NCBI GenBank assembly: GCA_001460835.1
Contig: CYKH01000991.1
Location: forward strand, 1 to 23,523
Direction: 5' to 3'
DNA: 23,523 nt
Source of the DNA: Bodo saltans
Taxonomy: Eukaryota > Euglenozoa > Kinetoplastea > Eubodonida > Bodonidae
Shown here: in pieces, positions 4,301-22,904 of the stretch
Numbering within the stretch: position 1 is the stretch's first letter
How the letters are laid out: every line of letters starts with the position of its first letter
Notes under the pieces: generated by a model
Databases searched by the model: none
What the model was told of the DNA's origin: nothing
Seen by the model: only the letters and a program-made list of their open reading frames with translations
Position numbers and translations under genes: made by a program

Positions 4301-7300
4301 ATCCGACAATTTGAAGCGCGCAGTGCAAACTATCGAGATCCCAACATGATGTGGTGGGCCAACGCGTCTCAATATCGCCCCTTCGTCCCCACTAGTCCGT
4401 CAGACGACGTGCTCATTGGTGGCACCGTACGATGGATTGCGTCCAGCCCAATTGCAACGTTTGTGTGGCTAGGAGAGCACGCATGCCGCGTCGTGCCGGA
4501 TGACGATAGCATTGTAGATGAATACGGGCGTCAAATTGTGCTGTTTAGTAACGCGGCGCTAGAAACCATCACGAACGGTGGTTGTGAGATCGTCTGCGTG
4601 TTTCGGAACGTAGACCTCAACATCCCTCGGCAAGGGCTTCTCCGTTTAGAGCTGTTGTATCAACCAGCGTCCCTCCCGCATCCCATTGTCGTTCCCATCA
4701 CGACGTTCTACATGAATAGCGGCCTACCAGTGGCACTATTGGTCTCGCGCCAAGGATTGTGGAGTCACCCCTTTTCTCCACATCCAGAATCCTCGACGAG
4801 CTCTTGGCAGCGCGTGCGTGTCTACATGCCTCACACCTGCGTGGAGCTTGTCCTTCAAGACTTATTTGGGAACCTAGTGCCGGCCCCACCGAGCACCTCA
4901 GTGTCCTTGTACACCAACGTGTCGCGCAGTCAACAGCACCCGCTGACGAAGTTCGTTGGAACGACTTGGTCGAACGGCACCGTCTACGAACGCATCTGCA
5001 ACTGGACACTGCCAGTCAACCTCTCAACTGTCACGGCACAAACCAACAATGCCCTCGTGGAGCGGCATGTTGTCGTGTCCGTCACCCAGCCTGGTGGCGG
5101 TACGAAGCAACTGAACGTGTCGGTTCCCGTGGAGTTGGTCACGCAGGCAACCTGCCTGACTTCCCTCACGATGGTGCGGCTGGTAGGATGTACCTCATGC
5201 AACTCTTCGCACGACCTGTGTGATTGCAGTATCGTATCGCGCATCACCGGTCTCGTACAACCAGTCGATACTGCGCCCATTGACAATATTCAAATTCAAG
5301 GCCGCCCATGTCTGTTCGGAACCGTTGGTGTCCCCCCGAACGGGATTGGATATCTTGACGTCAGTCAGTGTGCGGTGGCAGAATATCCCAATCTGCTTTC
5401 CAACGTACCGGCCATCCGCCCCACTGGGCTTACCGTTCTTCAAAGCTCTGGTCGGTACGTGGACTCTCCCGCCAACATCTACCTCAGGCCATACGCCAGT
5501 TCTGACCTTCAAATATTTCAACTCCTTGGCTGTAACGACACAAGAGCTAGCCCCTCCATTGCTGACTGTGATGTGACTGGTGCGACAACGAACATCACAA
5601 TCATTGGTCAAAACTTCCTTGCCGACTACGGTGTGCGTGTCACGACAACCTTTTCTGGGCCGAGTTTGTGTGCATCGGTTCAGTTTGTCAACTCCTCCTG
5701 CATGATCGCATCTGGATGCAAAGGCTTTGGCTTGGACGGCGTTGTCTCATTCTACCCTCTTGGGGATTCCAATCAAGACATCATCCCCGCCAACGTCCAT
5801 AACTGCACCGTTTCATTCTTTGTTCGATTTGAAGACGAATGCCCCAGAGATGCTCTCACCGGAACGCTTTGCTCAGGAAATGGTGCGTGCGACCAGTACA
5901 CAGGTTTGTGCAATTGCTTCACCGACGATGTCAACGGATTCTGGTCTGGTGCATCGTGCGACGTGTGTACCACCTTTTACAACAACAGCTTCCGATGTAT
6001 CACAGCATGCCCCATCGGGGAGGGAGGTTTCCCTTGCTCCAACCGAGGAGAGTGCTTCGACGGTGTTTGTGTTTGTACGGATTCCACTGCTACCGGCTTA
6101 GCGTGTGAGCGGGAGTGCGCAACGACCACGGACATGCCCTGTTCTGGCCACGGCACTTGCACAAGCGATGAGACATGTGACTGCTACAGCGACGGGTTCT
6201 TAGGGTACTACAACGGAACGTCTTGCGCCTCGTGCGCAACCGGCTGGAGTGGCGATGGCTGCACCACCGCGTGTCCTCTTGGAGCCAACAACCTTGTCTG
6301 CAACGGACATGGAGAATGCTACAATGGCGCGTGTATGTGCGTATCTGGTTACTGCGGTGCTGCGTGCGCATCATCGACGAACTGTGACACCTCTACGACA
6401 ACAAACTCTTCCGTTTGTGCCAACGACTGCAACGGGCACGGTGTATGCGACACGGCTCGCGCTGTGTGCCTCTGTGAAGGGGACTACGGTGGCGAAGATT
6501 GCAGTGGCGTCTGTCCAGACCTTGGTCGATGCTCTGGGCACGGTGCGTGCGTTGATGATGGATATTTGTGCCTCTGTTCTCCTCGTTACAGTGGTTACGA
6601 TTGCTCCGTCACATGCCCCGGCTATGTCGCGGCCACAGGTGAAACTTGCAACGGCCACGGTGTGTGTAGCAAACCTGGCGACTTTACTCTTCCTCAGTGC
6701 ACGTGCCTTGAGGGCTACGTCATGAGTGACTGCAGCGTGGCATGCTCATGCGGGGAGCATGGATCGTGCCAAGCTGACGGCACGTGTCTCTGCGACGCGA
6801 CGGACCGCCTTGGCTACTGGTCTGGTAGCGTTTGCCAAACGTGCGCTGCCTTCGCTGCTGGTGTCAGGTGCGATGTCGTGTGCCCGCACAACTCGACCAC
6901 GACGTGCAGCGGCAACGGAGAATGCACCGCCAGCGGTTGCGGCTGCTTCCACAGTGCATCTACAGGATATTGGGCAGGAACCAACTGCTCGTCATGTCAA
7001 CCTGGCTTCTATGGTGCGCAATGCAAATCAGAATGTCCGGGTGGGTCGTGTTTGGTCTGCACGGGACACGGCACGTGTTCCGACGGCACTACCGGGACTG
7101 GTGTCTGCAAATGCAACACAAACTGGACCGGCACCAACTGCAGCAGCTGCATCGCTGGGCACTACGGCGCGAACTGCTCATCGTTGTGCCCAGCCTCCTG
7201 CGGCCGTGCTGGTAATTGCTCATCAGGCCCTACGGGCACAGGAGAATGTATCTGCACCTCTGGTTTCGCACTCGACAGCACGTCCCAATGTAACATCTGC

Positions 7301-10300
7301 GCTGCAGGACACTTCGGCGACCGCTGCTTTGGTTGCAACACCGACGCGTCTGGGAATATTTGCTCTGCAAGAGGTTCGTGCGTGTTGGACTCGTCCACTG
7401 GAAATGGAATGTGCAATTGCACTGCCCCTTACGGAGGTTCTATTTGTCAATATCAATGCCCTGTCTTTTTATCCCTTACTTGTGGCACAACAACCGCAAG
7501 CTCGTGCATTGCGGACACTGTTTGTGTTTGTTCTGGCAACTTTCTTCTTTCAAGCGGCACCTGCTCCAAGTGCGTTGCCGGGTACTACGGCAAGTCCTGT
7601 ACCGCAGTGTGTCCCGCCTGCGTCAACGGTGTGTGCAGCGCTGGCCCCACAGGAAGTGGTCTTTGTGTCTGCAACAGCGGCTTCTGGGGACGACTCTGCT
7701 CGGAGGAGTGCCCTGGCGGTAGCAGCAACCCGTGCTCCGGGCATGGCGTGTGCAACACCACCTCAGGTACCTGCAGCTGCGACGCAAGTTCCGTGGGAGG
7801 GTTCTACACAGGTACCACGTGTAGCACTTGCCTCGCGACATACCAATCCACCAACTGCACGATCCCGTGCCCCGTCGACGCATCGTCGAGTATTTGCTCA
7901 GGTAGAGGGACCTGCAACAATGGTGTGTGCTCCAACTGCGTCGCCAAGTCGACAGATTTCTACAGCACCTACTGCGGGAGCCAATGCACGGTTGCAGGTC
8001 GATCGTGCTTCACCTTTGTCAACAACTGTCCAGAGGGGCTTTTCGGCTCATCTTGCCAGTTTCTCTGCCCCGGCGTCACGTCTGCGAACGGCTCTAACAG
8101 TTGCAACAACAACGGCTTCTGCAGTCCTGATACAGGTTACTGCAGCTGCTTCGGCGGCTACTTCGGCTCCTCGTGCAGCGACACGTGCCCCAAAGGGCTT
8201 GCGTACAACGTCAACGCCTCCACCAACATCACCACCGCGTGCAGCACACAGGGAACGTGTCTTCTCGGTGCATGCGTGTGCGACTATGGCTTCTACGGTT
8301 CTGCATGCGACAAGGTCGGTCCCGGCGGTGTCGGTGATATTTGTTTGCTTCGAGGAACAATGCAGAACGATGGTGCCTGTGAGTGCAATGAGGGTTACTA
8401 CGGAACATCTTGCGAACTACTGTGTCCTGGTATGGCGTCGAGCGGCCTTTCTTGCAACGGCAACGGAAACTGCGCATCAACTGGTACCTGTGTCTGCTAC
8501 AATAGTCCTGTCTTAGGCTACTTCCAAGGAGCGGACTGCAGTCTGTGTCGCAACGGTTATGGAGGTGGCGTCTGCCTCCAGACCTGCAACCCTGCATCAA
8601 GCATCACCGTTGGCGCCCAGTGCTCCTGCTTCCCTGGGTTCTGGGGAACGTACTGCTACGATGAATGTCCGGGAAAGCGTGAAGTGTCGTCATTTGAATC
8701 CACCTACTGCAACGAGCACGGTACTTGCTACGACGGGTACTCGGGCAACGGATCCTGTGCGTGTGACGCTAGCTACTACGGGACCAACTGCAGCATTCGA
8801 TGCACCACACTCCTTTGCAACGCAGCCGGACTCCTTATGACCATGTGCAATAGCAGTGGGTCTTGTGTGTGCCTTGAAACAGCGACGCAGCATTGGGATG
8901 GCAGCACATGCAGCGTGTGCAAGTTTGGGTACTGGGGAGATTATTGCGACTCGGTTTGTGATTGCTCCAACAACGGAGCTTGCGCAAAGGAGTCCGGTGT
9001 CTGCCAATGCTACAGCGATAGTGTCCATGGGTTCTGGACTGGGACCACGTGCTCACAGTGTCAGAGTAGTTACGTTGGTACACAGTGCAATGCGCTTAAC
9101 GTGATTATGACATTGGACACGTCACAGACCGCTGCGTTCCCTGCAGCATTTGACCACTCCACGTCCGCTGCTGTGTACTTCTTGGATGCGGACAACGATC
9201 GCACGTACGCCGGTAACAATCCACTTGTGGTCTATGAAACATCGACTCACAACCTCATCGGAACATTGTCCCTCACGTTTGACGAATCCAGTGATTCTAG
9301 CGCCACGCTGGTGTCGTACCTAATTACGTACAACGACACGTACCTCACCCTCCAGACCACAAACTACGTCACGACCAGGCAGCGTTACTTCATCCCCCGC
9401 ATCGGTCTCACCTCAATCTCCGATGCTGACGTCATCGTAGATCCGAGCTCGTCGACTAGTTCCCCCCAAGTTTTTGTCTTCGGTGGGGGTTCCTCATCCC
9501 TTACCTACGGTCAGCGCCGGCGTTTCGAATTGTTAACGCTGATTGACACCACGTCCACTGCCATCGGCATCGACGGGTCGTGGCGCATTGACGTCACCGG
9601 AGGAGGCCCCATTATCATCTCAATGGATGATGTGAATGTGGTGTACGAAATTCCATTCACTGCTCACAGTTTCGCAACCGTCTCGAGTGCCTCTATTCTG
9701 AAGAGCCGTGGCCTTGCGATCGTCACAGGGATTTCATCTGTCACAAGTGAATGGCAGATTATCAGAATTCGTAATATTGACCCGCTTGACAACGGTGTGT
9801 CTTTGGTCGTACTGACTGTCTCGTTCCTAGACATCGCCATATCCCAATGCATTCTTCCCTCGTTGTGCCCTGAGGTTCTGCGATGCGACGATGCGGCAAC
9901 CGGATCGTACATCTACTGCATCTTCGCCTATGAGTCTGGCCCGCTATTTGTCCGCGTGACCGATGGCATCACTCTGGTCAGTCAATGGACAACAACGTCT
10001 GTGCTGATCACCGGAACCACGTCCACGTACTCGATCACCGCCGCCACGTATTCGGAAGAGCTTGGCTACGGTTTCTTGGGGTACCAAGTCGTGGATACCG
10101 CAACCCCTGGGCAGATTATCAAAATGAACACCGTCGACGTCAGTGTCAGTAGTGTCTACGAGTTGATCGTGACCGAGACCGCCTCGAGCTTCACTCTCGA
10201 CACTGTGACCCGCCGCCTTGCCGTCGTTGTGTTATCCCCCATCGGCATTCGTGTGATCACCCTGCAATTCTTTGGAGTTCGCTCCGTGAGTCCCTACGTC

Positions 10301-13300
10301 ATCGACAACCGCGGTGGTGTTGTGGTGACCGTGTCCGGAGAAGCCTTTCCAAACGAAACGATCTGGTGCCAGTTCTACGGAGCGAACGACACCATCTACG
10401 AAAGCATTGCGACGTATGTGAATGCGTCGGTCCTGACGTGCATCGCCGTCGCAACGCCACCAACGTCGTTATGTGATCCCATCGAGTTTAACGTGCGCAC
10501 CGCGACGCAAAGCACCCAATCTACTGGTGTGTTCGTCAGTCGTCCACTTCCCGTTGATCTCAGTGCAGTGACGTCGTCGCAGGGGTTCAACGGGTACACG
10601 TCTGCGTTGACGTCTGACTCGATTACAGTGACGGGCTACATGTTCGTCGCGTCGCCGTCTGCGCGCTGTGTCATCAACGACACGGTTGCTGGACAGCTCA
10701 CCGACATGGCCTTGACGTTTGTTGATCAATCCACCGTTGAATGCCAACAGTTAGCGAGAGCCGGGCCGACAAACCCTGGCACGGTGCTTTCTTACTCCCA
10801 TGACGGATACCTCTTTGCGCCGACTCCTATTTTATTCGCCCTCGTTGGACTTGCTGCAGGCTTCCAGATTCAAGCCAGCGCTCTCACATTCCCAGCTGCC
10901 ATCACCGCCCAAGTACCCACCTCCGTTTTAATGCTAATCGATGCTCTCGGCAATAAAATTTTGTTGACCCAGCAATCCGATATTATCGTGACGGCTTCCA
11001 TCGTGCAAGGCAACAGCACGAACGCATACGCACTCTCCACCGCTTCCTCAACACAAGTGTCCTGCTCAGGAGGCTTTGCCACATTCGACGCGTTGTACAT
11101 GGACACTCCCCTTGCAGGGATTGCAACGATATTGTTCTCGGCTGTGCAAGGGTTCCGCCTGTCGGTGCAGTATGTTGTCTCTCCGGGCATTCCTGATCAC
11201 ATCGAACTGCAGAACCCCTCTAGGACGTCGTGGATTGTTGGCATCACGGAAGCACAAGCACTCAATCCAGCGCCTCTGGCATTGGTTGCGGACATCGCTG
11301 GAAATAAACTCAGCGACTCCTCTGTCATCCCACCCACACTGGAAGTGTCGTTTATCAAGAGTGTCTACGATGCGGATAGCAAACATGTGGACGCTGGGAC
11401 GGTTGTGTTTGCTGCTGGTACGAATATCGATATTTTGTACGAGTTCACGGGCGTGAGCGTGCAAAGTGTGTTCGGTACCCCAGTGACCTTAGTATTCCAA
11501 GCCCCAAGCTCATACACAAAATACGCAATTTTAGCAACGGTGTTCACACTCGATGTCCTAGAAGCTTGCTCAGTAGAGTCGTATGCAATCACGGGCACCT
11601 CACTTTGTCAAATTTGCCCTGAGTTCGGAACTTGCGACGGTACCACCTCGGTAGCTGTGCAGCCCGGACATTGGCGTGCCAACATTGAGACGTACGTCTT
11701 CTACGACTGCAGCCCGCCATTCTCATCCTCAGCGGCTTGCTCCACCGGAAGTTGCACCACTGGCTACACTGGCCCACGGTGTTCAGTGTGCGACGAAGGC
11801 TACGGCCACAGTGGGCTGACTTGCTCAGTGTGCCCACCCGTCCTCACCAGTGCTGTAGTGCTCACGCTTCTCTGCATCGCTATTGTGGGCGGTGTCACAT
11901 TCCTCACTATCAGCTCCGTGACGAGCGGAAAGGAGGCTGCGGAGGGCGGTGCTCATAACAACACAAGTCTTCTCATCAAGCTGTTGTTAAACCACTTCCA
12001 GATGACAGGAACGGTCGTCTCTCTCACCGCCGCAATGCCTTCTCTTCTATCCTCGTTCTTAAGCACCCAAGGACAGGCGTCGATTAGCGTTAATCTGGCG
12101 TTCCTTAGCTGCACGGTGACGCCTAATTTCTTCAGCCAGTACACCATGACCATGGTGCTGCCAGTGCTCGTTGTGGGCGTGTTCCTCGGCGTCATGGCTG
12201 TGTACAGCAAGGTTGAGATTCACTTCGCAGTGCAAGAGTACAACAAGAACATCAAAGCGCTGGAGATTGAGCAAGAGTTACTCAACACTCGACGTCAGAA
12301 CCTCGATGAAACCGTCTTTGAGGATTGTGTCGAGCCAGCGCAGGACGTCCCGAAAGTGTTCCTAGACATCATGACAAACGCCTTCAACAAACTAGACAGT
12401 GAACAACGCACAATGACTGCCAGCATGGCGAATAGTCGCAACACCAACAATCACACGTGGGCTCATCGCGTTGGGTCGCGAGGCAACAGCAGCGCTGGCG
12501 GCTTCGGGATGATTCCATTAGCGTTGAAGCAGCAGCGACACTCGTTGACAAGCTTGCACAGTGCCACCTCTGCGTCGACAGAAGTGTCTCCGCGGTACGA
12601 TGGCGGAAGTAAGCAGCGCAATTCATTTTTTTCGCCACGTGAAAGCACTGGTGCTGGTAGTGGTGCTCCAGGAGGAGGTCCCGCTGCCTTAGGTGGCGAC
12701 AGCTTCTTCCTCACAAGCATCACCGAAGAGATGATGGGCGACGAACAAAAGCTTGTGGTCTTCAGCAACTCTCAGGACGATGTTCTCGTGCCAGACCTCC
12801 TTCCGGCGCAACAAACCAGTTCTCCACGCCACGGCTCCATGACACTACAAAACAGTTGGTTCAACGTCAAGAGTTTGTTGCGGCGTGGAAGTGAGCAGGG
12901 AAGCCCGATGTCTCCTAGATCTGGTCCAAGCTCCCCGCGTGGAGCGTTCTCTGACCGCAGCGGTGGTGGTGGTAGACGATCTTCCATCAATGACTTCGCT
13001 GCGTTTGGCGAAGAAAGTAACGCGCCCCAAAGCCGGGCAGCCTCTCGCTCCAACAGCATCGTGCACGACAGCTTCCTCCTCAAATCACAAGGCCCCGCCG
13101 GCTCTCGTCGCGTCAAAACGATTCGCTTTGAGAATGTAGAAACCGCGCTCAGTGATGAAGACGACGATGAAGACTACCTTGATGCGCATCAGAAACGAAT
13201 TCAACAATCCGGGCTGTACTACGACGAAGAGAGCGATGATGACGATGACATTGACTACGGCGATGACGTGGAAAGTCCCAAATTAGCGCGACGAATGTCG

Positions 13301-15613
13301 TCTACCTTCGGCGGTGGATTTATGATGCGTCGTTCCTTCGTAGACGAAATCAAGCCGCCTGTATGGGCCGTCAACGCAAACGATGATGACCGCCTCCTCA
13401 CGCGATCCCAACTTGTCATCAACAAACTTCAGTCTCAGATCGTAGAAGAGATCGACGCTCGACACAAGGACTTAACCGAAAATCATGTGATTGCAACCTC
13501 ATTCATTCACAATTGGTTTGACTTCATGGCCGTGGCAACCGTCATTATCCTGTTCTTCCTCTACCCCACGATTCTGCAAGTCTGCGCCAACTTACTCCAA
13601 TGCGAGTCGTTGATTGTAAGTGGAACAGGTGAGCAAATTTCAGTGCTAGTCGTGGATCGCTCCATTGACTGCAACTCCAGCGAGTACAACAAGTACCGAG
13701 GACTTGCTCTCATCAGTCTTGCGGTGTATGGGCTCGGTATCCCTTTGCTGTGCATTGCACTGGTTCTCATCGTCGGTCTTGTGAAGAACAACTTACAAGC
13801 CGCCAAGACTCTCTTCTTCTTCACGACCGGTGGATTCCGATCCGAGTACTGGTTTAGCGAAGTCATCAGCTTACTGCGCAAGGCTGTTCTCGTCGTCCTC
13901 ACGCAGAGTATTACCGACGACACACTACGAGGCGTCCTCTGCACGTGGTCTATTTCTCTCTTCCTGGTGATCAACCTCATGATGAACCCGTGGCAAGACG
14001 AAGAGCTCCAGCTCCTTGAAAACTGCAGCCTTGCGTGCATCACTGTGACGTTCAACCTCATGCAGGTGCTCGTCCGGTACGACCCGACGTCATTCCAAGC
14101 GAACTTTATCGCCGTCCTCATTCTTGCCGTGAACATTATGATCTTTGTCGTCTTCGTTCGAAGATTGATATTGGATGCACAGGGGTTCTTGTTGCATCAC
14201 GCACACAATGGCTCCAAGCTCGCACGGTTTGTGACCTGGATTCTCCGCATCCGTCCGTCCGAAGAGCAACTTGCAGAGCAGACCATGCACATTCAACAAG
14301 ATATTCAAATCACTGGAAAACTATTCAGCGGTTCCCATCATCGCCTCTTTGCGCTGTACGATCTCACAGAGTCTGAGGTCAACGACGCATTGTTGTTTGA
14401 GCACAAGGAGGACTTGAAGGAGGAGGGAAGGTTCCTTAACGAAAAGAGTGTTGACTTCAAACTTCTTTTGTTAGACTTCCGCCACCAAAGTCGACAGCTC
14501 AGCAAAAGGCATAGTATCGCGGAGCTTGCAGTAGAAGAACAATCTGCGAATAGTGGCATCAGCAAGGTACTGCGGATGCTCACACGCCGAGCCAGTGAAG
14601 GGCTTCACGACATGGGCGGTCTCATCCATGACGTTGCCATCGACACCACTGCGATCTTAGCCGCACCCAACACCAGCATCGCACAACCTGTGTTCAAAGT
14701 GTTCACCACCTTCCAAATGACATTGTACATGCTCGGAGAACTCAGTAAGGTGACGGGGTGGTGTACCTTCGATGAAGAAGATGATAGTGGTGCAATTCAA
14801 ATAAACGACGTCGGTGGTGCTCCCAATAATGCGTTGCTGCTTATGGGCGCGGGCACTCAACAAGTGACGGGCGAGGGAAGCAACGGCTTCACCCCCACTG
14901 ACGAGGCACACACGGATCCTCAAGTTCAGTTGCAGCACCAAATCTCACCGCCTCCACTACAACCACTTCATCACAGTGGCGTTATTCTGTACGATGTCTT
15001 GACACCACAGACAATGGTCCTTGGCGGGGGGCAGCGCCGCGTGGCAGTGTCAGGGTTCACAACTGGGTCTCACAACATGCAATCATCCCACGCCGCTACT
15101 ACCTCTAGCCATTCTCGCACCCACACCACCGATGAAGAAGACCACTCTAGCAGCAGTGGTGGCCATCATCACACTGCCGATGATTTCCTCCGGGCTACTG
15201 GCATCGGACCGCTTGCAGCAGTTCCCCGTAATGACGGAGGTGAAAATAGAACTCCTCATCCCTTCGGCGATGATCTCGAAAGTCAAACTGCAACAAGCCG
15301 ACATGTTGCCCCTCCTGGTGGAGTTACCGATGACGACGGCAATGGCAATCGGCTCCCACATTTTATCGCTCCTGGCGCTGCAGGTGCAAACGTGCCGAGA
15401 CCAGATGCTCACATCGCGGAAATGGAGCGTCTCGAAGAGCTTGCAGATGACATTGCTCGCATCAAAGCAACAGACGCGCTAGAAAGTGTGTTTGCGATGG
15501 AGATGGCAGTGATGCACAAGGTGCTCGCCTCTGTACAACGGCGTCGCGCAGTTGAACAAGCTCGCGTGAACGCCCTTCGCAACCGAATCACGTACGATCC
15601 AGATGAAGACTAG
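1313..15613 (+). CDS. Giant mucin-like, EGF-repeat, multi-pass membrane surface receptor
   Basis: The product has 4766 residues from the first ATG after the splice signal to TAG at 15611-15613, with no intron. Domains in order, read by eye: signal peptide 1-22; Ser/Thr-rich mucin-like region about 22-693, probably heavily O-glycosylated; beta-rich ectodomain with many N-glycosylation sequons 694-1507, whose last 100 residues resemble an IPT fold (ITIIGQNFL); about 24 EGF-like repeats 1508-2592; beta-rich region 2593-3418 with a clear IPT/TIG domain about 2988-3070 and Ig-like stretches after it; Cys-rich juxtamembrane module 3419-3508 (GPRCSVCDEGYG); first membrane segments about 3511-3536, 3555-3584 and 3610-3635; long cytosolic loop about 3640-4065; more segments about 4070-4096, 4130-4157, 4180-4200, 4206-4228, 4240-4255 and 4265-4286; cytosolic tail to 4766 ending in a coiled coil. 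The sequence around YWFSEVISLLRKAVLVV resembles the membrane core shared by many protist EGF/TNFR-like multi-pass proteins. A role in prey adhesion, or as a GPCR- or TRP-like sensor, is inference. I know no exact named family. Confidence 0.93.
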   Translation: MTPQTFIAVILCTITLFPRITASPTTSLSSNRYTHSTTKSDSGSVSGTRSGSASLTASATSSASGTVSWSVSSSASRSASASTSLSASMSKTASASSTQTDSASSTASNSGSTSASTSASASTTTTSSASASASPSTSASTTTSASDSGSVSGTRSGSASLTPTSSVSPSVSGSPSETFSASPSVSNSLSFSISPTLSASPSGSLSASSSDSNSVSVSQSPTVSGSISASFSASVSVSISLSASLSASVSLSSSPSFSVSPTASFSPSASLSLSPSGSDSPSVSTSISSTWTGSPSTSLSPSGSISASPSDSLSPTTSMSPTRSTSPSFSVSGSLSASGSPSLSISPSNSDSSSRTESDSPSLSTSLSGSMTESTTASMSPTESVSPSSSSSPTFSESQTPSLTESPSTSSSPSLSVSSSPSSTASPTLTFSPSSSLSESPSMSVSPSSTSSPSSTMSESFSMQQSLSESSSLSLTATTSATTSQSATTSFSTSMSMSMSLTFSYTSSGSVTTTQSESLSTTASSSVSMSASDEISESHTPTQSASPSFESTVSRTVGTLTSEESSSATFSQSLTGSATSSVSKTESSTASTSQTASSSQTTEYTMTSTLTSTPSRSASETSETSASYTQSNSLSYSNSLSLTYSATPTNEVSPSTTFSESPSASLSPTETSSPSATGSATPTITTASESLTISRDPFRPGLINIIPDMNASHTNYSADHVMIITLQKDQGWTSVGFWTSFSNGTNVTEINLIETREGFYVYSVVDLDYERTYTKHLDCKDYFPCYINLTSPIDAGMHRVTFFFNYKLGGQNNTRPSMALYVNKVLDPHPIPAALQVIDYLFPPTIAYATPLEIQVQQITADGSTVPFDQFGAPGEGETATLVLAPRDPLSRCESVSVGGIQSLTISDFTTQIGCFIGGITLTGGVYTRTDPNDATSRVYLPLQPRATQVLHCPNIVIGPQASYGIHFAPYSAPHAPVITPTEQFAQISHAQMMSGIRQFEARSANYRDPNMMWWANASQYRPFVPTSPSDDVLIGGTVRWIASSPIATFVWLGEHACRVVPDDDSIVDEYGRQIVLFSNAALETITNGGCEIVCVFRNVDLNIPRQGLLRLELLYQPASLPHPIVVPITTFYMNSGLPVALLVSRQGLWSHPFSPHPESSTSSWQRVRVYMPHTCVELVLQDLFGNLVPAPPSTSVSLYTNVSRSQQHPLTKFVGTTWSNGTVYERICNWTLPVNLSTVTAQTNNALVERHVVVSVTQPGGGTKQLNVSVPVELVTQATCLTSLTMVRLVGCTSCNSSHDLCDCSIVSRITGLVQPVDTAPIDNIQIQGRPCLFGTVGVPPNGIGYLDVSQCAVAEYPNLLSNVPAIRPTGLTVLQSSGRYVDSPANIYLRPYASSDLQIFQLLGCNDTRASPSIADCDVTGATTNITIIGQNFLADYGVRVTTTFSGPSLCASVQFVNSSCMIASGCKGFGLDGVVSFYPLGDSNQDIIPANVHNCTVSFFVRFEDECPRDALTGTLCSGNGACDQYTGLCNCFTDDVNGFWSGASCDVCTTFYNNSFRCITACPIGEGGFPCSNRGECFDGVCVCTDSTATGLACERECATTTDMPCSGHGTCTSDETCDCYSDGFLGYYNGTSCASCATGWSGDGCTTACPLGANNLVCNGHGECYNGACMCVSGYCGAACASSTNCDTSTTTNSSVCANDCNGHGVCDTARAVCLCEGDYGGEDCSGVCPDLGRCSGHGACVDDGYLCLCSPRYSGYDCSVTCPGYVAATGETCNGHGVCSKPGDFTLPQCTCLEGYVMSDCSVACSCGEHGSCQADGTCLCDATDRLGYWSGSVCQTCAAFAAGVRCDVVCPHNSTTTCSGNGECTASGCGCFHSASTGYWAGTNCSSCQPGFYGAQCKSECPGGSCLVCTGHGTCSDGTTGTGVCKCNTNWTGTNCSSCIAGHYGANCSSLCPASCGRAGNCSSGPTGTGECICTSGFALDSTSQCNICAAGHFGDRCFGCNTDASGNICSARGSCVLDSSTGNGMCNCTAPYGGSICQYQCPVFLSLTCGTTTASSCIADTVCVCSGNFLLSSGTCSKCVAGYYGKSCTAVCPACVNGVCSAGPTGSGLCVCNSGFWGRLCSEECPGGSSNPCSGHGVCNTTSGTCSCDASSVGGFYTGTTCSTCLATYQSTNCTIPCPVDASSSICSGRGTCNNGVCSNCVAKSTDFYSTYCGSQCTVAGRSCFTFVNNCPEGLFGSSCQFLCPGVTSANGSNSCNNNGFCSPDTGYCSCFGGYFGSSCSDTCPKGLAYNVNASTNITTACSTQGTCLLGACVCDYGFYGSACDKVGPGGVGDICLLRGTMQNDGACECNEGYYGTSCELLCPGMASSGLSCNGNGNCASTGTCVCYNSPVLGYFQGADCSLCRNGYGGGVCLQTCNPASSITVGAQCSCFPGFWGTYCYDECPGKREVSSFESTYCNEHGTCYDGYSGNGSCACDASYYGTNCSIRCTTLLCNAAGLLMTMCNSSGSCVCLETATQHWDGSTCSVCKFGYWGDYCDSVCDCSNNGACAKESGVCQCYSDSVHGFWTGTTCSQCQSSYVGTQCNALNVIMTLDTSQTAAFPAAFDHSTSAAVYFLDADNDRTYAGNNPLVVYETSTHNLIGTLSLTFDESSDSSATLVSYLITYNDTYLTLQTTNYVTTRQRYFIPRIGLTSISDADVIVDPSSSTSSPQVFVFGGGSSSLTYGQRRRFELLTLIDTTSTAIGIDGSWRIDVTGGGPIIISMDDVNVVYEIPFTAHSFATVSSASILKSRGLAIVTGISSVTSEWQIIRIRNIDPLDNGVSLVVLTVSFLDIAISQCILPSLCPEVLRCDDAATGSYIYCIFAYESGPLFVRVTDGITLVSQWTTTSVLITGTTSTYSITAATYSEELGYGFLGYQVVDTATPGQIIKMNTVDVSVSSVYELIVTETASSFTLDTVTRRLAVVVLSPIGIRVITLQFFGVRSVSPYVIDNRGGVVVTVSGEAFPNETIWCQFYGANDTIYESIATYVNASVLTCIAVATPPTSLCDPIEFNVRTATQSTQSTGVFVSRPLPVDLSAVTSSQGFNGYTSALTSDSITVTGYMFVASPSARCVINDTVAGQLTDMALTFVDQSTVECQQLARAGPTNPGTVLSYSHDGYLFAPTPILFALVGLAAGFQIQASALTFPAAITAQVPTSVLMLIDALGNKILLTQQSDIIVTASIVQGNSTNAYALSTASSTQVSCSGGFATFDALYMDTPLAGIATILFSAVQGFRLSVQYVVSPGIPDHIELQNPSRTSWIVGITEAQALNPAPLALVADIAGNKLSDSSVIPPTLEVSFIKSVYDADSKHVDAGTVVFAAGTNIDILYEFTGVSVQSVFGTPVTLVFQAPSSYTKYAILATVFTLDVLEACSVESYAITGTSLCQICPEFGTCDGTTSVAVQPGHWRANIETYVFYDCSPPFSSSAACSTGSCTTGYTGPRCSVCDEGYGHSGLTCSVCPPVLTSAVVLTLLCIAIVGGVTFLTISSVTSGKEAAEGGAHNNTSLLIKLLLNHFQMTGTVVSLTAAMPSLLSSFLSTQGQASISVNLAFLSCTVTPNFFSQYTMTMVLPVLVVGVFLGVMAVYSKVEIHFAVQEYNKNIKALEIEQELLNTRRQNLDETVFEDCVEPAQDVPKVFLDIMTNAFNKLDSEQRTMTASMANSRNTNNHTWAHRVGSRGNSSAGGFGMIPLALKQQRHSLTSLHSATSASTEVSPRYDGGSKQRNSFFSPRESTGAGSGAPGGGPAALGGDSFFLTSITEEMMGDEQKLVVFSNSQDDVLVPDLLPAQQTSSPRHGSMTLQNSWFNVKSLLRRGSEQGSPMSPRSGPSSPRGAFSDRSGGGGRRSSINDFAAFGEESNAPQSRAASRSNSIVHDSFLLKSQGPAGSRRVKTIRFENVETALSDEDDDEDYLDAHQKRIQQSGLYYDEESDDDDDIDYGDDVESPKLARRMSSTFGGGFMMRRSFVDEIKPPVWAVNANDDDRLLTRSQLVINKLQSQIVEEIDARHKDLTENHVIATSFIHNWFDFMAVATVIILFFLYPTILQVCANLLQCESLIVSGTGEQISVLVVDRSIDCNSSEYNKYRGLALISLAVYGLGIPLLCIALVLIVGLVKNNLQAAKTLFFFTTGGFRSEYWFSEVISLLRKAVLVVLTQSITDDTLRGVLCTWSISLFLVINLMMNPWQDEELQLLENCSLACITVTFNLMQVLVRYDPTSFQANFIAVLILAVNIMIFVVFVRRLILDAQGFLLHHAHNGSKLARFVTWILRIRPSEEQLAEQTMHIQQDIQITGKLFSGSHHRLFALYDLTESEVNDALLFEHKEDLKEEGRFLNEKSVDFKLLLLDFRHQSRQLSKRHSIAELAVEEQSANSGISKVLRMLTRRASEGLHDMGGLIHDVAIDTTAILAAPNTSIAQPVFKVFTTFQMTLYMLGELSKVTGWCTFDEEDDSGAIQINDVGGAPNNALLLMGAGTQQVTGEGSNGFTPTDEAHTDPQVQLQHQISPPPLQPLHHSGVILYDVLTPQTMVLGGGQRRVAVSGFTTGSHNMQSSHAATTSSHSRTHTTDEEDHSSSSGGHHHTADDFLRATGIGPLAAVPRNDGGENRTPHPFGDDLESQTATSRHVAPPGGVTDDDGNGNRLPHFIAPGAAGANVPRPDAHIAEMERLEELADDIARIKATDALESVFAMEMAVMHKVLASVQRRRAVEQARVNALRNRITYDPDED
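1432..1480 (+). repeat. 49-bp exact direct repeat, copy 1
   Basis: Identical over 49 bases to 1750-1798, 318 bases (exactly 106 codons) downstream in the same frame. It encodes residues 41-56 (DSGSVSGTRSGSASLT). It marks the left edge of a G/C-rich codon segment inside the Ser/Thr region. Confidence 0.95.
1750..1798 (+). repeat. 49-bp exact direct repeat, copy 2
   Basis: Exact copy of 1432-1480. It encodes residues 147-162 with the same 16-residue peptide. It sits at the right edge of the G/C-rich segment; beyond it the codon choice changes. Confidence 0.95.
5834..9088 (+). repeat. Tandem array of about 24 EGF-like modules in the giant protein
   Basis: Residues about 1508-2592 show a regular cysteine pattern, typically C-P-x(4-10)-C-[SN]-G-[HN]-G-x-C-x(5-9)-C-x-C, often followed by a second half with GxxC-x-x-C (as in FWSGASCDVC). 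I count about 24 such modules by hand. The spacing between CNGHG-type motifs varies and the copies are diverged, so this is an old array and not a recent expansion. EGF arrays of this kind make stiff extracellular rods used in adhesion. Modules near 13, 16, 19 and 21 lack some of the usual cysteines or glycines. Confidence 0.88.
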
Positions 15614-16823: not shown

Positions 16824-19800
16824 ATGACAGATACGCACAGCGACGAATCTGCGCTTATGGTGCCGAGAAGGCAAGTGCGCAACAATAGCCATACATTGCC
16901 TCATCTGGACGAGGAATCTCCCTACACGGAAGCGGATGCCGCTCGAGAACATTCGAAGCATTCCACTTCGTCAGCTGTGGGAGGGGGGATTACGGAATCT
17001 CCTCATGTTACCGTTGATCAAGGATTTATCAGCCATGAACTACCTCAAGCAGGAGTGGATGGGGGATACACCAGGGATATGCGAGAATTATCAGATTACG
17101 AAAAGAAAGAGGTAGAACTTGACGGCGCCCCAGAGGCACCTCCACCACACGCGGAAGAGCGAACACAAGACGATTATCTTGGTGTCTACAGCGACGTCAT
17201 GAGTCAGTCCCCCGTGAGGAGAGCAGAAGAGCAGCGGCGTCGTTTGTTAGCCACCGCAACCTCTGCCTCCACAGGCCTGCGATATCGGACCAATCCACTA
17301 CACTTGGTGGTCCAGCAGAAGATTATCGCGTCCATTGGTCACTACGACGCGCAGCTGCCGCCGCACGAGGGCAGCGCTGAAGACGCTGATGCCACATCCA
17401 CACAGCACCATCAGCCAGCATCAGGAGCTCACGCATCATCCGTGACTCAACAGCGTCACCAGCAAGGAAATCTAATCCCCTCACGCCCAACCACTGCTCC
17501 TCATCACAACCTGCACCAACCTCGAAAGGTTAGCCCCACCTCACCAATCCCACGATCAGACTACACCCGACCGAGTACTGCGCTCCTTGCGTCTGTCTCG
17601 TCGAAGTCTGTTCGCACAACATCTGGTGGAGTTGTCAGTCTCTGCGATCAAAGCAGCCAAACTGCTGCTGGAAGTGATGCGTCATCTATTCGGGATCTCG
17701 CACCACGCTCCCATCCGCTGTCGATTCACTCTACTGCACCAGCGAGAACCTCCCCGACGTCCCAACAACAACAACAACACCCACTTGCCAGCGGGACCAG
17801 TGGTGGTGCTGATGAAGAGTACAGTGTCGAGGATATGCTGTCGACACCAAAAGCGAAGCGTTATCTCGAGCAGCTCTTGTCACGACCTACTCCATTCGCA
17901 GATTTTACTGTAGCAACATTAGATGCCCCACTCGTCGGCCGCCACCATCACCATCACCAACACGAACGCCACCAGCACGCACAGCATCAAAGCCCTGATT
18001 TCGAGCACGCAGAGGAGAGCGACAGCAGCCGCGACTGGGAACCAAATCAACCAGAAGTGACCGTCATCCCAGTGGATGGGACAGGTGCAGGATCATCGTC
18101 ATCATCATCGTCGTCCAATCCAGACGAAGTCGAAGATGTGAGCTTGGAAGAGATGGATAACGACGGAACGCACTCAGAGTCCTTCACCCCAACCAGCAGT
18201 CACGCACGAGGTGTCGCTGGCAATGGATTTCCACTCCCTGTGATTACGAGTGGCTCAGCGACGCCGCCGGTGGGGAAAAGACCTCTGGTCGTGCCGGTGC
18301 CGAGGTCTCCAAGGAACGTTGTCACCCCAGGCAGTGACAATGGATCGTTGCTGGAGCTTGTTCCCACCATGTCCAGACCTCAAGCAGAGTTCGCGTCTGT
18401 GATCTCACGAACCATGTCAATGGTGAATAGAGTTCACAAGCAAGCGGCGTTCCCGATGGATATCAACGGTGGTGTTGCATTTGTCGACCCGCCTGCTGCT
18501 GCTAACAATCCAATTGATGTTGGGCAGACGAGTGGCACCAACAGCGGGAAGGTAACCCCAACATCAGGTTCCATGTCTCAGCATAGTATTGGGCGTGAGT
18601 CACGCATGAGCTTCAAAGTCAACATCGACAAGCAAATCAAGAATACCATGCTGAAAGCAGGTGCTGCGCAGTGTGCAGTTGCGATGCCTCCCAACGTGGC
18701 AGTGGACACCACAACACAATCGATTGCAGGAGAGTTGGCGCATGGACCCTTTACTGTAGATTCCATCCGCTCCAACGGCTTCGCCTGGCACCCCACAGAT
18801 CCCACTGCGATGGACATCGACAGTCCCCTATTAGCAACTCCAGCAGATGGTGGGCGTGCCCCAACGTTTGCCGTACAGCCTCAATCGACTCCTCTCACCC
18901 TGCAGCTTACCACGGAGGGTATTTTTATTGTGCCGCAAACAACGGATAAAACGCACCGCGTGTACACATCGTTCCAGCTGTCGTACCGTCGCCAAGCAAA
19001 CTCCGCGACAATCGTGATGATTGCACTGGACGCCATCACCAATATTCGCCTAGAGCGAGGCAGGAACACGTCAGACGATCGTGGTGTCTCTTCAACCACC
19101 AGCGATAGTGTGCTCATGTCCGTCTCACGAAGCGAGCGCCACTCGAAGTTAATTCGCAATGCGTGGTTCCCTCCTGGTGTCGCTGAAGTCTCCGTCGCCA
19201 TACGTACACGCAACGCGGTGGAGATTGTCTCATCCTTCTCCACCATGAGCATTCAGCGCTTGAGAATGCTGACCGAAGGCCCCCAGCTGCGTCGTAAGAC
19301 GTTGACCATTGTCCACTTTAACGACGTCTACAATCTCATTGAACGTGAAGGGCCCACTGCCGCAGTAGTTGGAGGGGCGGCACGATTCCACACACTTCTC
19401 AACAAAATAAGGGAACGCTCACACCCCTTAGTGCTCTTCTCTGGCGACTTCATGGGGCCCAGCTTGATGTCGGTGGACATGAAAGGCAAGCAAATGGTAG
19501 ACTTCTTCAACCAGTGCGGAGTGTTGTACGGCTGCTTTGGTAACCACGAGTTTGATTACGGTCTGAAAGCGCTTCACGAAGCGATCCAAGGCTTCACCTA
19601 TGGAGCTCATGTGTTCACCGGAAGCAACACTCAGTGGGTCATGAGTAACATGTTCGAGGCGAGCACTAGCATGCCCGTTGCGGGTGCGTCCCAAAAAGAG
19701 CTCTTTACGTGGAATGGTGTTCGCGTTGGTATTGTTGGCCTTTGCGAAGATTGGATTGGAGGTTGCTCTCAGCTTGCCCAAGGTGAAATTATTTACATCG

Positions 19801-22800
19801 ATATGTTTGAAACAGGAGAACGTCTTGCTCGTGAGTTGAAAGCGGACGGTGCCGAGGTCGTGATCGCTCTGACCCATTGCAGGTTGGATAATGACAAGCA
19901 ACTCATGACGCGGTGCCCCTCCATAGATCTCCTCCTTGGAGGACATGATCATTTCTTCAAGTGTGTCCCTTCACTTCATATTGTCAAATCCGGTGAAGAG
20001 TTCCAGTACCTCACCGAGATTACAGTGAATGTGGATCCACTTCCCGTCGCCACCCCTGCCAACTCCCAGAATGCAGCCGTGTCCCCTGGCATGATAGGCA
20101 GCACCAGCTCACGACGTACCACCAGCGGAAGTGAAGCGATGACTGCGTCATTCCAGAGCACACGCAACGCCTTGGCTAACCCAAACAACAATAGCACCAG
20201 CACGATCCCGCCACCCCCGGCGCCCATCATGTACAGCCACAATCACAACAACAACAACAACGGCACCACTTCTGTGACACCAACAGGGTCAACGGATATG
20301 CTCATGTTGCAACAGGACGACACAAAGAGTCCCCTTCCTGGCGTGGTTGCCCCCCTCGTCGTCGCTCCTCCTCCTGTTCCAGTGACCGCCCAGGTATCCT
20401 TTGCCGTCACTGCATACCCCATTCACTGGGATATTCAACCATCTGCACAAATGATGAAGTTGATTGCACGCTATCAAAACAAACTAGATGAGCGCATGGG
20501 CGGCGTCGTTGGTCGCACTGCTGTCCCGTTAGATCCTCGCGAGTCTACGGTACGATTCCGTGAAGGTCTTCTCACGGGATTTGTGTGCGATGTGATTGTG
20601 CAAGAGATGCGAGCAAGACTGTTGCCGAATGCCGACTTTGCCATTCTCGGAGGCGCCGCGTTTTCTGGCAAGACGATCATCCCGCAAGGTGTTCTGACGA
20701 TGGGGCATATTTTTGATCTGTTCCCGAATGATACCAAAGTGATGGCAATACGGATTTCTGGTGCGACGCTGCACAAACTGCTCACTGTGATGGTGAGAGA
20801 GTGCCCGGAAGAAGCCCCTTCCTTCCCCCACTGCAGTGAAGACTTGTCCTTCACCATTAGTCTGATTGGCGGTGGAGCCCCCAAAGTCAATAACATCCAG
20901 GTGAAGGGGATGCCCCTCGACGAGGACCGCGAGTATGTGGTGGCCGTCGAAGATTTTGCAGGAAAGGGAAGCGGGAAGTACAAATTCCTGAAGAACGAAG
21001 CGGAGGTGCTGATTGAGGAAGAAATGGCTGCCCAGGTCGTGTTCTGGTTGATTGACTACTTCTCTCGAAAGAAGGGACAGACTAGGCACACTTCTGTTGC
21101 GCTCGAAGCGGACGCTCTCCGTGCAGAGCAGGACCGTGCAAAGAAAGAAGATCGCCGAACGCGCAAAGCACAAAGAAATCGAAACACCCAAGATCGACTC
21201 TTACAGAGCGCTATCGATAGCAACGCGCCAAAGTTTGTCATCCCCGTTCGCCAATTCAAGCCGCTTGAATTCGCATCCACTCTGGAGTCAGGGGCCCTTG
21301 CGCGCCTCTACGCTGCTACAACACTTCTTAGTGAGGATGTCGAGACCGGATCTAACGTTGCGTTGATCGAAAAGGTTGTCACGAGGTTACTCAAGTGCAT
21401 GGCGTGCCGTGTGTATCTCTTCGACAAGGTGTCAAACATTCTCCGCCCACTGGTGTCACAGAAAGGTGTCAATCACGCCATCACGGGGCAGCTTCTTGCT
21501 GACAACAGCTCTCTCGCTGGTTACGCCGTGCATTTCAACTGCGCAGTGAACACTAAGAACGCGCCAAAAGACCCGAGCTACACCCCCTCCGTAGATGGTA
21601 GCCCAACCCTTAAAGTTCAAACGATGCTCACCTTTCCCATTTTCTACCGCAAGCAGTGCCTTGGCGTCGTGCAAGCGTTGAATAAGCAACATCCGCAGGA
21701 GCTTGATGACGGTGGTCGAGATATGTTCGAACAGTCCGTGTCTTCGGAAGACTCTTCGACAGACTCGGAGTCCGACTCTGAGTCCGAAGGAGAAGTGAGC
21801 GGGACGATCCGTATTATGGTCGGTGGTGCAAGTCCACTCACGCCAAAAGAAAAGCGTCGTCGTAAGAAGCGTCGAACTCAGCTGTGTTTCAGTGATGAAG
21901 ATCAAGGCCTTGCGTTACTCCTCTCGAAGCAGATTGGCACGCAGTTGCACTTCTCGAACATGTACCAACGTATTCAGCTGAGCGATGAGGCCACAAAAAA
22001 TCTCATGGAGATGGCGAGACTTCTTGGCAGAGCTCAAAAGGACGATAGCGTGCAAACCATGGTGCTTCGCATCACAGATATCGGAAAGCAACTCATCGGG
22101 TGTGATCGCTGCAGTCTGTTCCTCGTGGACAAGGGGGAAATGTGGACAGTTGTGAAGACAAAGGACTTGACTGGCAACATTCAGATTCGACTTCCTCTTG
22201 GCACCGGTGTGGCTGGTCACGCCGCTCAAACGGGGACTAAAATGAATATTCACGATGCGTACAAGTCACCTTACTTCAACCCAGAAACCGATCGTAGAAC
22301 TGGATACCAAACCCGCACGATGCTAGCAGTTCCCATGCTGAGCGAGAACGGTGAGTCGATCCTTGGTGTCCTACAACTGATCAACAAGAACAACGGCAAG
22401 GTGTTCACAGACGCGGATGAAGACCTCGCCGAAAATTTCGTCAATCTTGCCGCCATCGCTGTGCACAATTCCTTCGAAATTGAGACACTGCGCTTGGGAC
22501 GTGACGAAAGCACTCTACAAGTGCTCCCTGTTCATGAGCTCAACCGTATCACACTGAAACAAGGCTGGAAAACGATTCGTAGAAACTTGCACCTTGTCGC
22601 TGCAATGCGCCTCGTCGTGAGGGGCGGCATTACCTTCGAGGGCATAGGAGATTCCTCTATGATGGACAGAGGGCATAGCATCCACCCTCTTGGGCGATCC
22701 GGCGATGATGCTCTTGTTGCGGAGGAAATGGCATACAAAGAGCTTAGTCCGTTGACATCGACAGGCGGGTCATCAGGGCAGCATCGCGCAAGTGAGACAC

Positions 22801-22904
22801 CGAATAATGTCTCGCTACGCCAACTCACCATCGTACGTGGCATGCAAGATTTCGATGACTTGCAGAGTGAAGCGGAAAGCGAAGATCGTGGTGAGCGAGA
22901 ATAG
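16824..22904 (+). CDS. 5'-nucleotidase-type metallophosphoesterase fused to tandem GAF domains
   Basis: The product has 2026 residues from ATG 16824 to TAG 22902-22904. Residues 1-680 look disordered, with Gln, His (about 373-389) and Ser (about 424-431) runs. Residues about 690-813 form an unrecognised beta-rich domain. A UshA/5'-nucleotidase-like metallophosphatase follows at about 828-1060: HFNDVYN (D834), SGDFMGPS (D875), GNHEFDYG (N907, H908), THCR (H1018) and GGHDH (H1041, H1043). A low-complexity linker follows, then the 5'-nucleotidase C-terminal domain about 1229-1400 (VEDFAGKGSGKY). GAF1 lies about 1491-1712 with NK at 1620-1621 and F1689; GAF2 lies about 1722-1890 with a complete NKXnFX3DE motif (N1854-K1855, F1861, D1865-E1866). 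A charged tail ends the protein. Family knowledge suggests hydrolysis of a phosphate ester such as a nucleotide, controlled by cyclic-nucleotide binding to GAF. No signal peptide is present from this start, so a cytosolic enzyme is likely. Starting at 16602 would add a hydrophobic N-terminus, which I think is untranslated sequence. Confidence 0.88.
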   Translation: MTDTHSDESALMVPRRQVRNNSHTLPHLDEESPYTEADAAREHSKHSTSSAVGGGITESPHVTVDQGFISHELPQAGVDGGYTRDMRELSDYEKKEVELDGAPEAPPPHAEERTQDDYLGVYSDVMSQSPVRRAEEQRRRLLATATSASTGLRYRTNPLHLVVQQKIIASIGHYDAQLPPHEGSAEDADATSTQHHQPASGAHASSVTQQRHQQGNLIPSRPTTAPHHNLHQPRKVSPTSPIPRSDYTRPSTALLASVSSKSVRTTSGGVVSLCDQSSQTAAGSDASSIRDLAPRSHPLSIHSTAPARTSPTSQQQQQHPLASGTSGGADEEYSVEDMLSTPKAKRYLEQLLSRPTPFADFTVATLDAPLVGRHHHHHQHERHQHAQHQSPDFEHAEESDSSRDWEPNQPEVTVIPVDGTGAGSSSSSSSSNPDEVEDVSLEEMDNDGTHSESFTPTSSHARGVAGNGFPLPVITSGSATPPVGKRPLVVPVPRSPRNVVTPGSDNGSLLELVPTMSRPQAEFASVISRTMSMVNRVHKQAAFPMDINGGVAFVDPPAAANNPIDVGQTSGTNSGKVTPTSGSMSQHSIGRESRMSFKVNIDKQIKNTMLKAGAAQCAVAMPPNVAVDTTTQSIAGELAHGPFTVDSIRSNGFAWHPTDPTAMDIDSPLLATPADGGRAPTFAVQPQSTPLTLQLTTEGIFIVPQTTDKTHRVYTSFQLSYRRQANSATIVMIALDAITNIRLERGRNTSDDRGVSSTTSDSVLMSVSRSERHSKLIRNAWFPPGVAEVSVAIRTRNAVEIVSSFSTMSIQRLRMLTEGPQLRRKTLTIVHFNDVYNLIEREGPTAAVVGGAARFHTLLNKIRERSHPLVLFSGDFMGPSLMSVDMKGKQMVDFFNQCGVLYGCFGNHEFDYGLKALHEAIQGFTYGAHVFTGSNTQWVMSNMFEASTSMPVAGASQKELFTWNGVRVGIVGLCEDWIGGCSQLAQGEIIYIDMFETGERLARELKADGAEVVIALTHCRLDNDKQLMTRCPSIDLLLGGHDHFFKCVPSLHIVKSGEEFQYLTEITVNVDPLPVATPANSQNAAVSPGMIGSTSSRRTTSGSEAMTASFQSTRNALANPNNNSTSTIPPPPAPIMYSHNHNNNNNGTTSVTPTGSTDMLMLQQDDTKSPLPGVVAPLVVAPPPVPVTAQVSFAVTAYPIHWDIQPSAQMMKLIARYQNKLDERMGGVVGRTAVPLDPRESTVRFREGLLTGFVCDVIVQEMRARLLPNADFAILGGAAFSGKTIIPQGVLTMGHIFDLFPNDTKVMAIRISGATLHKLLTVMVRECPEEAPSFPHCSEDLSFTISLIGGGAPKVNNIQVKGMPLDEDREYVVAVEDFAGKGSGKYKFLKNEAEVLIEEEMAAQVVFWLIDYFSRKKGQTRHTSVALEADALRAEQDRAKKEDRRTRKAQRNRNTQDRLLQSAIDSNAPKFVIPVRQFKPLEFASTLESGALARLYAATTLLSEDVETGSNVALIEKVVTRLLKCMACRVYLFDKVSNILRPLVSQKGVNHAITGQLLADNSSLAGYAVHFNCAVNTKNAPKDPSYTPSVDGSPTLKVQTMLTFPIFYRKQCLGVVQALNKQHPQELDDGGRDMFEQSVSSEDSSTDSESDSESEGEVSGTIRIMVGGASPLTPKEKRRRKKRRTQLCFSDEDQGLALLLSKQIGTQLHFSNMYQRIQLSDEATKNLMEMARLLGRAQKDDSVQTMVLRITDIGKQLIGCDRCSLFLVDKGEMWTVVKTKDLTGNIQIRLPLGTGVAGHAAQTGTKMNIHDAYKSPYFNPETDRRTGYQTRTMLAVPMLSENGESILGVLQLINKNNGKVFTDADEDLAENFVNLAAIAVHNSFEIETLRLGRDESTLQVLPVHELNRITLKQGWKTIRRNLHLVAAMRLVVRGGITFEGIGDSSMMDRGHSIHPLGRSGDDALVAEEMAYKELSPLTSTGGSSGQHRASETPNNVSLRQLTIVRGMQDFDDLQSEAESEDRGERE
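17763..18117 (+). repeat. Homopolymeric codon runs in the N-terminal disordered region
   Basis: Within the nucleotidase-GAF gene there is a CAA run coding Gln (17763-17777), a CAC/CAT-rich stretch coding a His-rich segment (about 17941-17990, with five His in a row), and a TCA/TCG run coding eight serines (about 18093-18117). They are short triplet-slippage tracts in a region with no recognisable fold and could vary in length between strains. Confidence 0.7.
20045..20400 (+). repeat. Low-complexity linker splitting the two halves of the nucleotidase
   Basis: Between the metallophosphatase domain and the C-terminal domain, residues about 1075-1193 are rich in Ser, Thr, Asn and Pro and include an AAC run coding Asn (about 20246-20263) and Pro runs. 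In bacterial UshA and CD73 the two domains are joined by a short helical linker, so this is an insertion of about 100 residues. It is probably unstructured. Confidence 0.7.

Follow-up and report, generated by a model that had tools for sequence, protein, structure and literature searches.

The gene and its predicted product

This article concerns a gene in a stretch of 23,523 nucleotides from the kinetoplastid Bodo saltans (assembly GCA_001460835.1, contig CYKH01000991.1, positions 1 to 23,523 of the forward strand), hereafter the window, in which a 5'-nucleotidase-type phosphoesterase is fused to two GAF domains (Table 1). Its reading frame, the second large open reading frame (ORF) of the window, runs uninterrupted for 2026 amino acids, and a Pfam scan of the product found Metallophos (residues 828-1043), 5_nucleotid_C (1228-1390) and, in two stretches, GAF. 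A first-pass annotation made from the letters alone had placed a metallophosphatase, a 5'-nucleotidase C-terminal domain and two GAF domains in one protein; this combination is borne out, with every motif it named lying at the residue it gave and hidden Markov model support for the nucleotidase and GAF regions coming from the matched Pfam families. No PDEase_I domain was found in the product (Pfam, E up to 0.1), and residues 1-829 have no Pfam family match up to E 1. A PH-like domain suspected by eye in this upstream part was rejected, given a low predicted local distance difference test score (pLDDT) and the absence of a Pfam match. When read from the start at 16824, the product contains no hydrophobic N-terminus and no secretion or membrane segment, the highest 19-residue hydropathy being 1.45, and it is probably cytosolic, as the first-pass annotation had also supposed.

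Table 1. Features of the tandem-GAF metallophosphoesterase gene (window coordinates; residues refer to the 2026-residue product).
Feature	Coordinates	Strand	Remarks
ORF, tandem-GAF metallophosphoesterase	16824..22904	+	further in-frame ATGs at 16602 and 16605
Long, low-complexity N-terminal region, residues 1-821	16824..19286	+	residues 690-790 mostly of low pLDDT
Metallophos, residues 828-1043	19305..19952	+	ligands D834, D875, N907, H908, H1018, H1041, H1043; Y836 at the place of CD73 H38
Low-complexity insert splitting the two catalytic-module domains, residues ~1070-1195	20031..20408	+	low pLDDT; mostly missing from both paralogs
5_nucleotid_C, residues 1228-1390	20505..20993	+	Pfam, AlphaFold model, structural matches
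Rebuilt substrate loop LGGAAFSGK, residues 1275-1283	20646..20672	+	replaces the N-G-x-I-R motif of nucleotidases
Long helix out of the catalytic module (predicted), residues 1432-1464	21117..21215	+	structure model
GAF1, residues ~1509-1710	21348..21953	+	cAMP-contact pattern lacking
Charged low-complexity insert in GAF1, residues ~1631-1690	21714-21893	+	sequence
47-residue helix linking GAF1 to GAF2 (predicted), residues 1691-1737	21894..22034	+	structure model
GAF2, residues 1744-1880	22053..22463	+	cAMP-type contacts R1762, S1764, V1777, Y1813, D1823, T1826, T1830, Q1851
NKX5FX3DE signature NKNNGKVFTDADE, residues 1854-1866	22383..22421	+	GAF2 alignment
C-terminal motif LNRITLKQGWKTIRR, residues 1906-1920	22539..22583	+	RIxxKxGWxxxR kept in all three paralogs

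The assembly from which the gene derives (29.3 Mb in 934 contigs) encodes two paralogs, found by searching the genome with the protein and lying on the contigs designated C712 (ORF of 1570 amino acids) and C606 (1496 amino acids). Both contain Metallophos and 5_nucleotid_C, and their catalytic modules are 53-54% identical to that of the window gene. The GAF domains of C712 score above the Pfam cut-off; the GAF-like sequence of C606 falls below it (17.4 bits against 22.4, E 0.0066), and the C-terminal part of C606 resembles the GAF2 region of the window gene (E 6.6e-17, 28% identity). Codon positions 1, 2 and 3 differ between paralogs by about 0.39, 0.28 and 0.63, a pattern as under protein-level constraint. 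A GAF family search of the genome marked at least four contigs (C432, C712, C716 and C510); including C606 there are five, three with the tandem-GAF metallophosphoesterase family and one with the phosphodiesterase PDEB. The protein on C510 (L031:1802-3445) is a further GAF protein with an NK...FTEEDE signature, its ORF being cut by the contig end. The paralog on C606 (L028:799-5289) has GGQHH instead of GGHDH together with degenerate GAF domains and is a possible pseudoenzyme.

The catalytic module and its rebuilt pocket

An AlphaFold model of residues 690-1410 has a predicted template modelling score (pTM) of 0.72, with a pLDDT of at least 90 at 411 of 721 residues, and a structural search ranks 5'-nucleotidases, CD73 and UshA among them, as its best matches. 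Among the 50 matches listed, CD73 entries labelled closed give target template modelling scores (TM-scores) of 0.74-0.77 and those labelled open 0.53-0.55. When viral structure models were searched, the nucleotidases of pandoravirus and pithovirus ranked at the top. With CD73/UshA-type 5'-nucleotidases the window protein shares the two-domain Metallophos and 5_nucleotid_C fold and the dinuclear metal ligands; it differs from them in being fused to GAF domains, in having no secretion signal or membrane segment by hydropathy, in losing the NGGGIR loop and the equivalents of F417 and D506, and in carrying D-V-Y instead of D-x-H.

Bacterial relatives, of which the best 80 of 509 are considered here, share D-V-Y, GNHE and GGH(D/E)H with the window protein at identities of up to 43% and form a D-V-Y metallophosphatase/nucleotidase clade. 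Alignment A3 contains 60 of the 80 (omitted are L032, L035, L060, L069, L073, L081, L086, L087, L088, L091, L094, L096, L098, L101-L105, L107 and L108), and a fresh alignment recounts all 80. D834, D875, N907, H908, H1018, H1041 and H1043 are present in 80/80, the search patterns favouring GNHE by construction, and all seven ligands are also intact in the window gene and C712, two of the three paralogs when the window gene is counted among them. The position of Y836 is occupied by Y in 77 of these relatives, by H in two (L094 and L104, the two rows with D-V-H) and by G in one, so the tyrosine is characteristic of the clade and gives no evidence of decay. Seven phage records gave weak matches (22-29% identity), and one phage relative is annotated as a mannosylglucosyl-3-phosphoglycerate phosphatase; 63 pattern matches among viral contigs contained no relatives.

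The substrate side of the module is rebuilt: the bacteria retain an N-G-x-I-R pocket and the window family does not. Six positions of CD73, which we take to be its nucleotide contacts, are R354, N390, R395, F417, F500 and D506. The equivalents of R354 and F500 are retained, and the other four are lost in all three paralogs, which have G/G/G at the N390 site, S/S/A at R395, N/N/G at F417 and G/A/A at D506. Where the bacterial relatives have letters, the same sites are N in 74/75, R in 75/75, F or Y in 74/75 and D or E in 68/72, five rows being gapped in the N390, R395 and F417 columns. In alignment A3 the first three counts are 59/60, 60/60 and 59/60, and the D506 column has D in 26/60, so the figure for D506 depends on the alignment. 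If the loop is shifted by one residue, L1275 or P1301 falls at pocket sites, the asparagine and the aromatic residue are still absent, and F1300 lies nearby. The window protein therefore does not have a CD73-type nucleotide pocket, and the changes make a simple nucleoside monophosphate (NMP) a less likely substrate. The first-pass description of a nucleotide or phosphate-ester hydrolase survives in its phosphate-ester part, and its nucleotide part is undercut by these four of six changed positions. The substrate is probably non-canonical, as judged from the sequence; possible candidates are phosphorylated sugars, other small phosphoesters and cyclic nucleotides.

Among the 60 bacterial relatives of alignment A3, 45 columns are near-invariant, of which 35 are kept and six lost in all three paralogs. 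The C-terminal domain contains four of the six lost columns, and three of these four belong to the rebuilt substrate loop. Comparison of lost and kept columns by domain gives a Fisher p of 0.05, and the clustering in the C-terminal domain is accordingly no more than suggestive.

The tandem GAF domains

The model of the GAF region consists of two GAF folds and a connecting helix and matches PDE2A and CyaB2 over their tandem-GAF portions. GAF2 carries a full NKX5FX3DE signature at 1854-1866, and a search of 12 bacterial genomes gave cyanobacterial ORFs as its top matches (42% identity, E 4.8e-30); each of six cyanobacterial comparison ORFs has two GAF domains and a class III cyclase domain. Its closest relative in the Protein Data Bank is CyaB2, whose ligand contacts R291, T293, I308, D356 and N359 (PMC4411481; this and the other articles cited by accession are drawn on in part) align with R1762, S1764, V1777, D1823 and T1826, the R and D being identical. 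Y1813, D1823, T1830 and Q1851 are present in all six tandem-GAF cyclase rows, and neither the tyrosine nor a complete NKFDE motif occurs in any of five other bacterial GAF domains. The contact pattern is lacking from GAF1 (by eye) and was not found in the GAF domains of C606 in the alignment of paralogs; the first GAF of C712 holds both the pattern and NKX5FX3DE, so two of the three paralogs have a site of the cyclic AMP (cAMP) type, in different places.

The first-pass annotation had assigned the second GAF to the cyclic-nucleotide type on the strength of the signature. The assignment holds with the addition of the cyclase-like contact residues; the use of the signature as a marker holds in that it is present and fails in that it is insufficient alone. 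The NKFDE residues make no contact with the ligand, although in PDE2 and PDE5 their mutation weakens or eliminates binding (PMC11977230), and NKX5FX3DE by itself is thus no proof of binding. The contact residues common to the tandem-GAF cyclases are better evidence, and point to cAMP over cyclic GMP (cGMP). As a ligand of GAF2, cGMP was set aside in view of the roles of E512 and D439 in PDE2A, whose places are taken by Q1851 and T1779.

Two GAF domains and a long helix are shared with PDE2A, PDE5, trypanosome PDEB1/B2 and Anabaena CyaB1/CyaB2, as are one GAF with NKX(n)FX3DE and cAMP-type contacts and a partner enzyme that handles phosphoesters. Unlike in these phosphodiesterases (PDEs) and cyclases, the catalytic domain of the window protein is a 5'-nucleotidase-fold metallophosphoesterase, where those enzymes have PDEase_I or a class III cyclase domain. 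By its sequence, the family joins tandem GAF domains to an additional class of enzyme acting on phosphoesters, with the order of the two parts reversed. No GAF was found in the 61 of the 80 bacterial relatives that were scanned with Pfam, no nucleotidase-GAF fusion is named in the titles and abstract openings of the open-licence literature searched, and the terms GAF and nucleotidase do not occur in the main text of the Bodo saltans genome paper (PMC4728078).

Signalling context, proposed mechanism and alternatives

The genome contains 29 cyclase-domain matches, 12 PDEase_I matches (several being pieces of one gene) and, on C716, a PDEB-like protein of the order GAF-GAF-PDEase_I as in trypanosomes. 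Proteins resembling the regulatory subunit of protein kinase A (PKAR, PKA) and carrying cNMP_binding domains are of two kinds. That on C805 (L144:567-2264) has canonical cAMP cassettes, GELAIMYGMPRAAT and GEMALLFDRPRMAS, and that on C612 (L145:549-2048) keeps the glutamates in both cassettes without the arginine, a nucleoside type as in trypanosomatids, and has a trypanosomatid-like N-terminus resembling leucine-rich repeats (all by eye). Nucleoside-binding trypanosomatid PKAR has cassettes with glutamates and without arginines (PMC10959531, PMC6440977), and inosine, guanosine and adenosine activate trypanosomatid PKA (PMC10959531). From the two kinds of PKAR, signalling by cAMP and by nucleosides may coexist in this cell, and it is tempting to speculate that a cAMP-switched phosphoesterase connects them. 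On another contig, C364 (L029:2469-5627), an ORF of 1052 amino acids has 5_nucleotid_C at 390-544, a class III cyclase domain at 686-878 and, between them near 650, one hydrophobic segment, and the contig has no Metallophos match; its product has the appearance of a receptor-type cyclase with the substrate-binding half of a nucleotidase in its ectodomain.

In the 5'-nucleotidase fold of CD73 and UshA, the C-terminal half rotates relative to the metal half, opening and closing the active site. We propose, as a reading evenly poised between right and wrong, that the window gene encodes a cytosolic metal-dependent phosphoesterase of this fold with a C-terminal tandem GAF of the CyaB2/PDE2A type, in which cAMP on GAF2 gates the hydrolysis of a phosphoester, probably one other than a simple NMP. 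GAF2 would be the cAMP site, and GAF1, its own site lost, would serve for coupling or dimerization. Binding would be signalled along the inter-GAF helix and then along the helix between the catalytic module and GAF1. The signal would thereby reach the 5_nucleotid_C half and let cAMP control how that half turns relative to the metal half. Sequence and models show the fusion, the metal ligands, the folds, the signature and contacts of GAF2, the rebuilt pocket and the set of three paralogs, and we infer cAMP binding, allosteric gating and the substrate.

Several observations weigh against this proposal. The catalytic module precedes the GAF domains and in the PDEs and CyaB it follows them, so the known coupling path is not simply transferable. 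The tandem-GAF model was built from 15 sequences with a pTM of 0.45, and Foldseek matches it to CyaB2 with modest TM-scores (0.40/0.49). The S, D, T, T and Q of the contact pattern also occur in L116, a different kind of GAF, and the roles given to the six CD73 positions come from the literature. In C606, ligand H1041 is replaced by Q and the GAF motifs are incomplete, so that part of the family may be non-catalytic.

In another reading, cyclic nucleotides do not bind the GAF domains, whose only role would be dimerization or the binding of another small molecule, and cAMP would not regulate the enzyme. This is unlikely in our estimation, even though the NKFDE residues lie off the ligand (PMC11977230), GAF-B of trypanosome PDEB has no known ligand and might aid dimer formation (PMC2689650), and GAF1 and C606 offer no contact pattern; GAF2 retains Y, D, T, T and Q and a complete motif like the tandem-GAF cyclases, and the first GAF of C712 does likewise. 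An improbable variant has cAMP switching a true 5'-nucleotidase, with AMP, IMP or GMP converted to nucleosides that might in turn bind the nucleoside-type PKAR in a relay from cAMP to PKA. The nucleotidase fold, the retained R354 and F500 equivalents, the gene on C612 and the nucleoside-activated PKA of trypanosomatids (PMC10959531) are in keeping with it; the four missing pocket residues speak against it, as does the canonical PKAR-like protein on C805, which makes action of cAMP by way of nucleosides unnecessary.

Loss of hydrolysis altogether, the catalytic module having become a protein- or ligand-binding platform in a cAMP-responsive scaffold, would account for the missing pocket residues, the absent H1041 ligand of C606 and the change of D-x-H to D-V-Y. 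We consider it quite improbable, because the metal ligands remain intact in the window gene and C712 and D-V-Y is the rule in the bacterial relatives. That the fusion is an artefact, through an assembly join or two genes read as one, is highly improbable: the assembly does contain near-exact tandem duplications of 369-447 bp, on C712, C364 and C716, but no such repeat is present in the window GAF gene (the sole exact repeat of at least 40 bases in the window is at 1432/1750), the frame is open from end to end, and the domain order is identical in two paralogs as divergent as those described above.

On the proposal of a cAMP-gated phosphoesterase, a C-terminal tandem GAF through which cAMP directly switches an enzyme acting on a new substrate would constitute a new class of kinetoplastid cAMP effector, a claim we put forward tentatively and regard as rather doubtful. 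If true, one second messenger would control the abundance of some other phosphorylated signal or metabolite, possibly with nucleosides as the product, supplied to the cell's own nucleoside-type PKA. The targets of cAMP in kinetoplastids are largely open, and trypanosomatid PKA responds to nucleosides (PMC10959531, PMC6440977); cyclic-AMP-response proteins (CARPs) are among the few candidate effectors, the term GAF being absent from one CARP paper by term search (PMC10354285), and a 2026 paper describes effectors of the flagellum and contractile vacuole as still to be identified (PMC13340794). A gene family uniting cAMP-type GAF domains and a hydrolase offers a direct and testable candidate.

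A few features of the assembly are recorded here in addition. No spliced-leader exon pattern was found in the genome, either exact or allowing two mismatches; paraflagellar-rod proteins gave nine matches (best E 9e-105) and none in 14 control genomes, marking the genome as euglenozoan. Together with the PDEB-like protein and the PKAR-like protein of trypanosomatid type, they point to a kinetoplastid, possibly a free-living bodonid, an assignment in which spliced-leader patterns play no part. The near-exact tandem duplications lie in coding frames of L027, L029 and L030, with periods of 447, 369 and 387 bp and exact blocks of up to 153 bases; they copy GAF segments in C712 and C716, through recent duplication or as an assembly artefact. 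Elsewhere in the window, 1313-15613 is occupied by an ORF of 4766 amino acids. Its product has EGF/teneurin-like repeats, is strongly hydrophobic in segments at residues 3515, 3612, 4136 and 4264, and looks like a giant surface protein.

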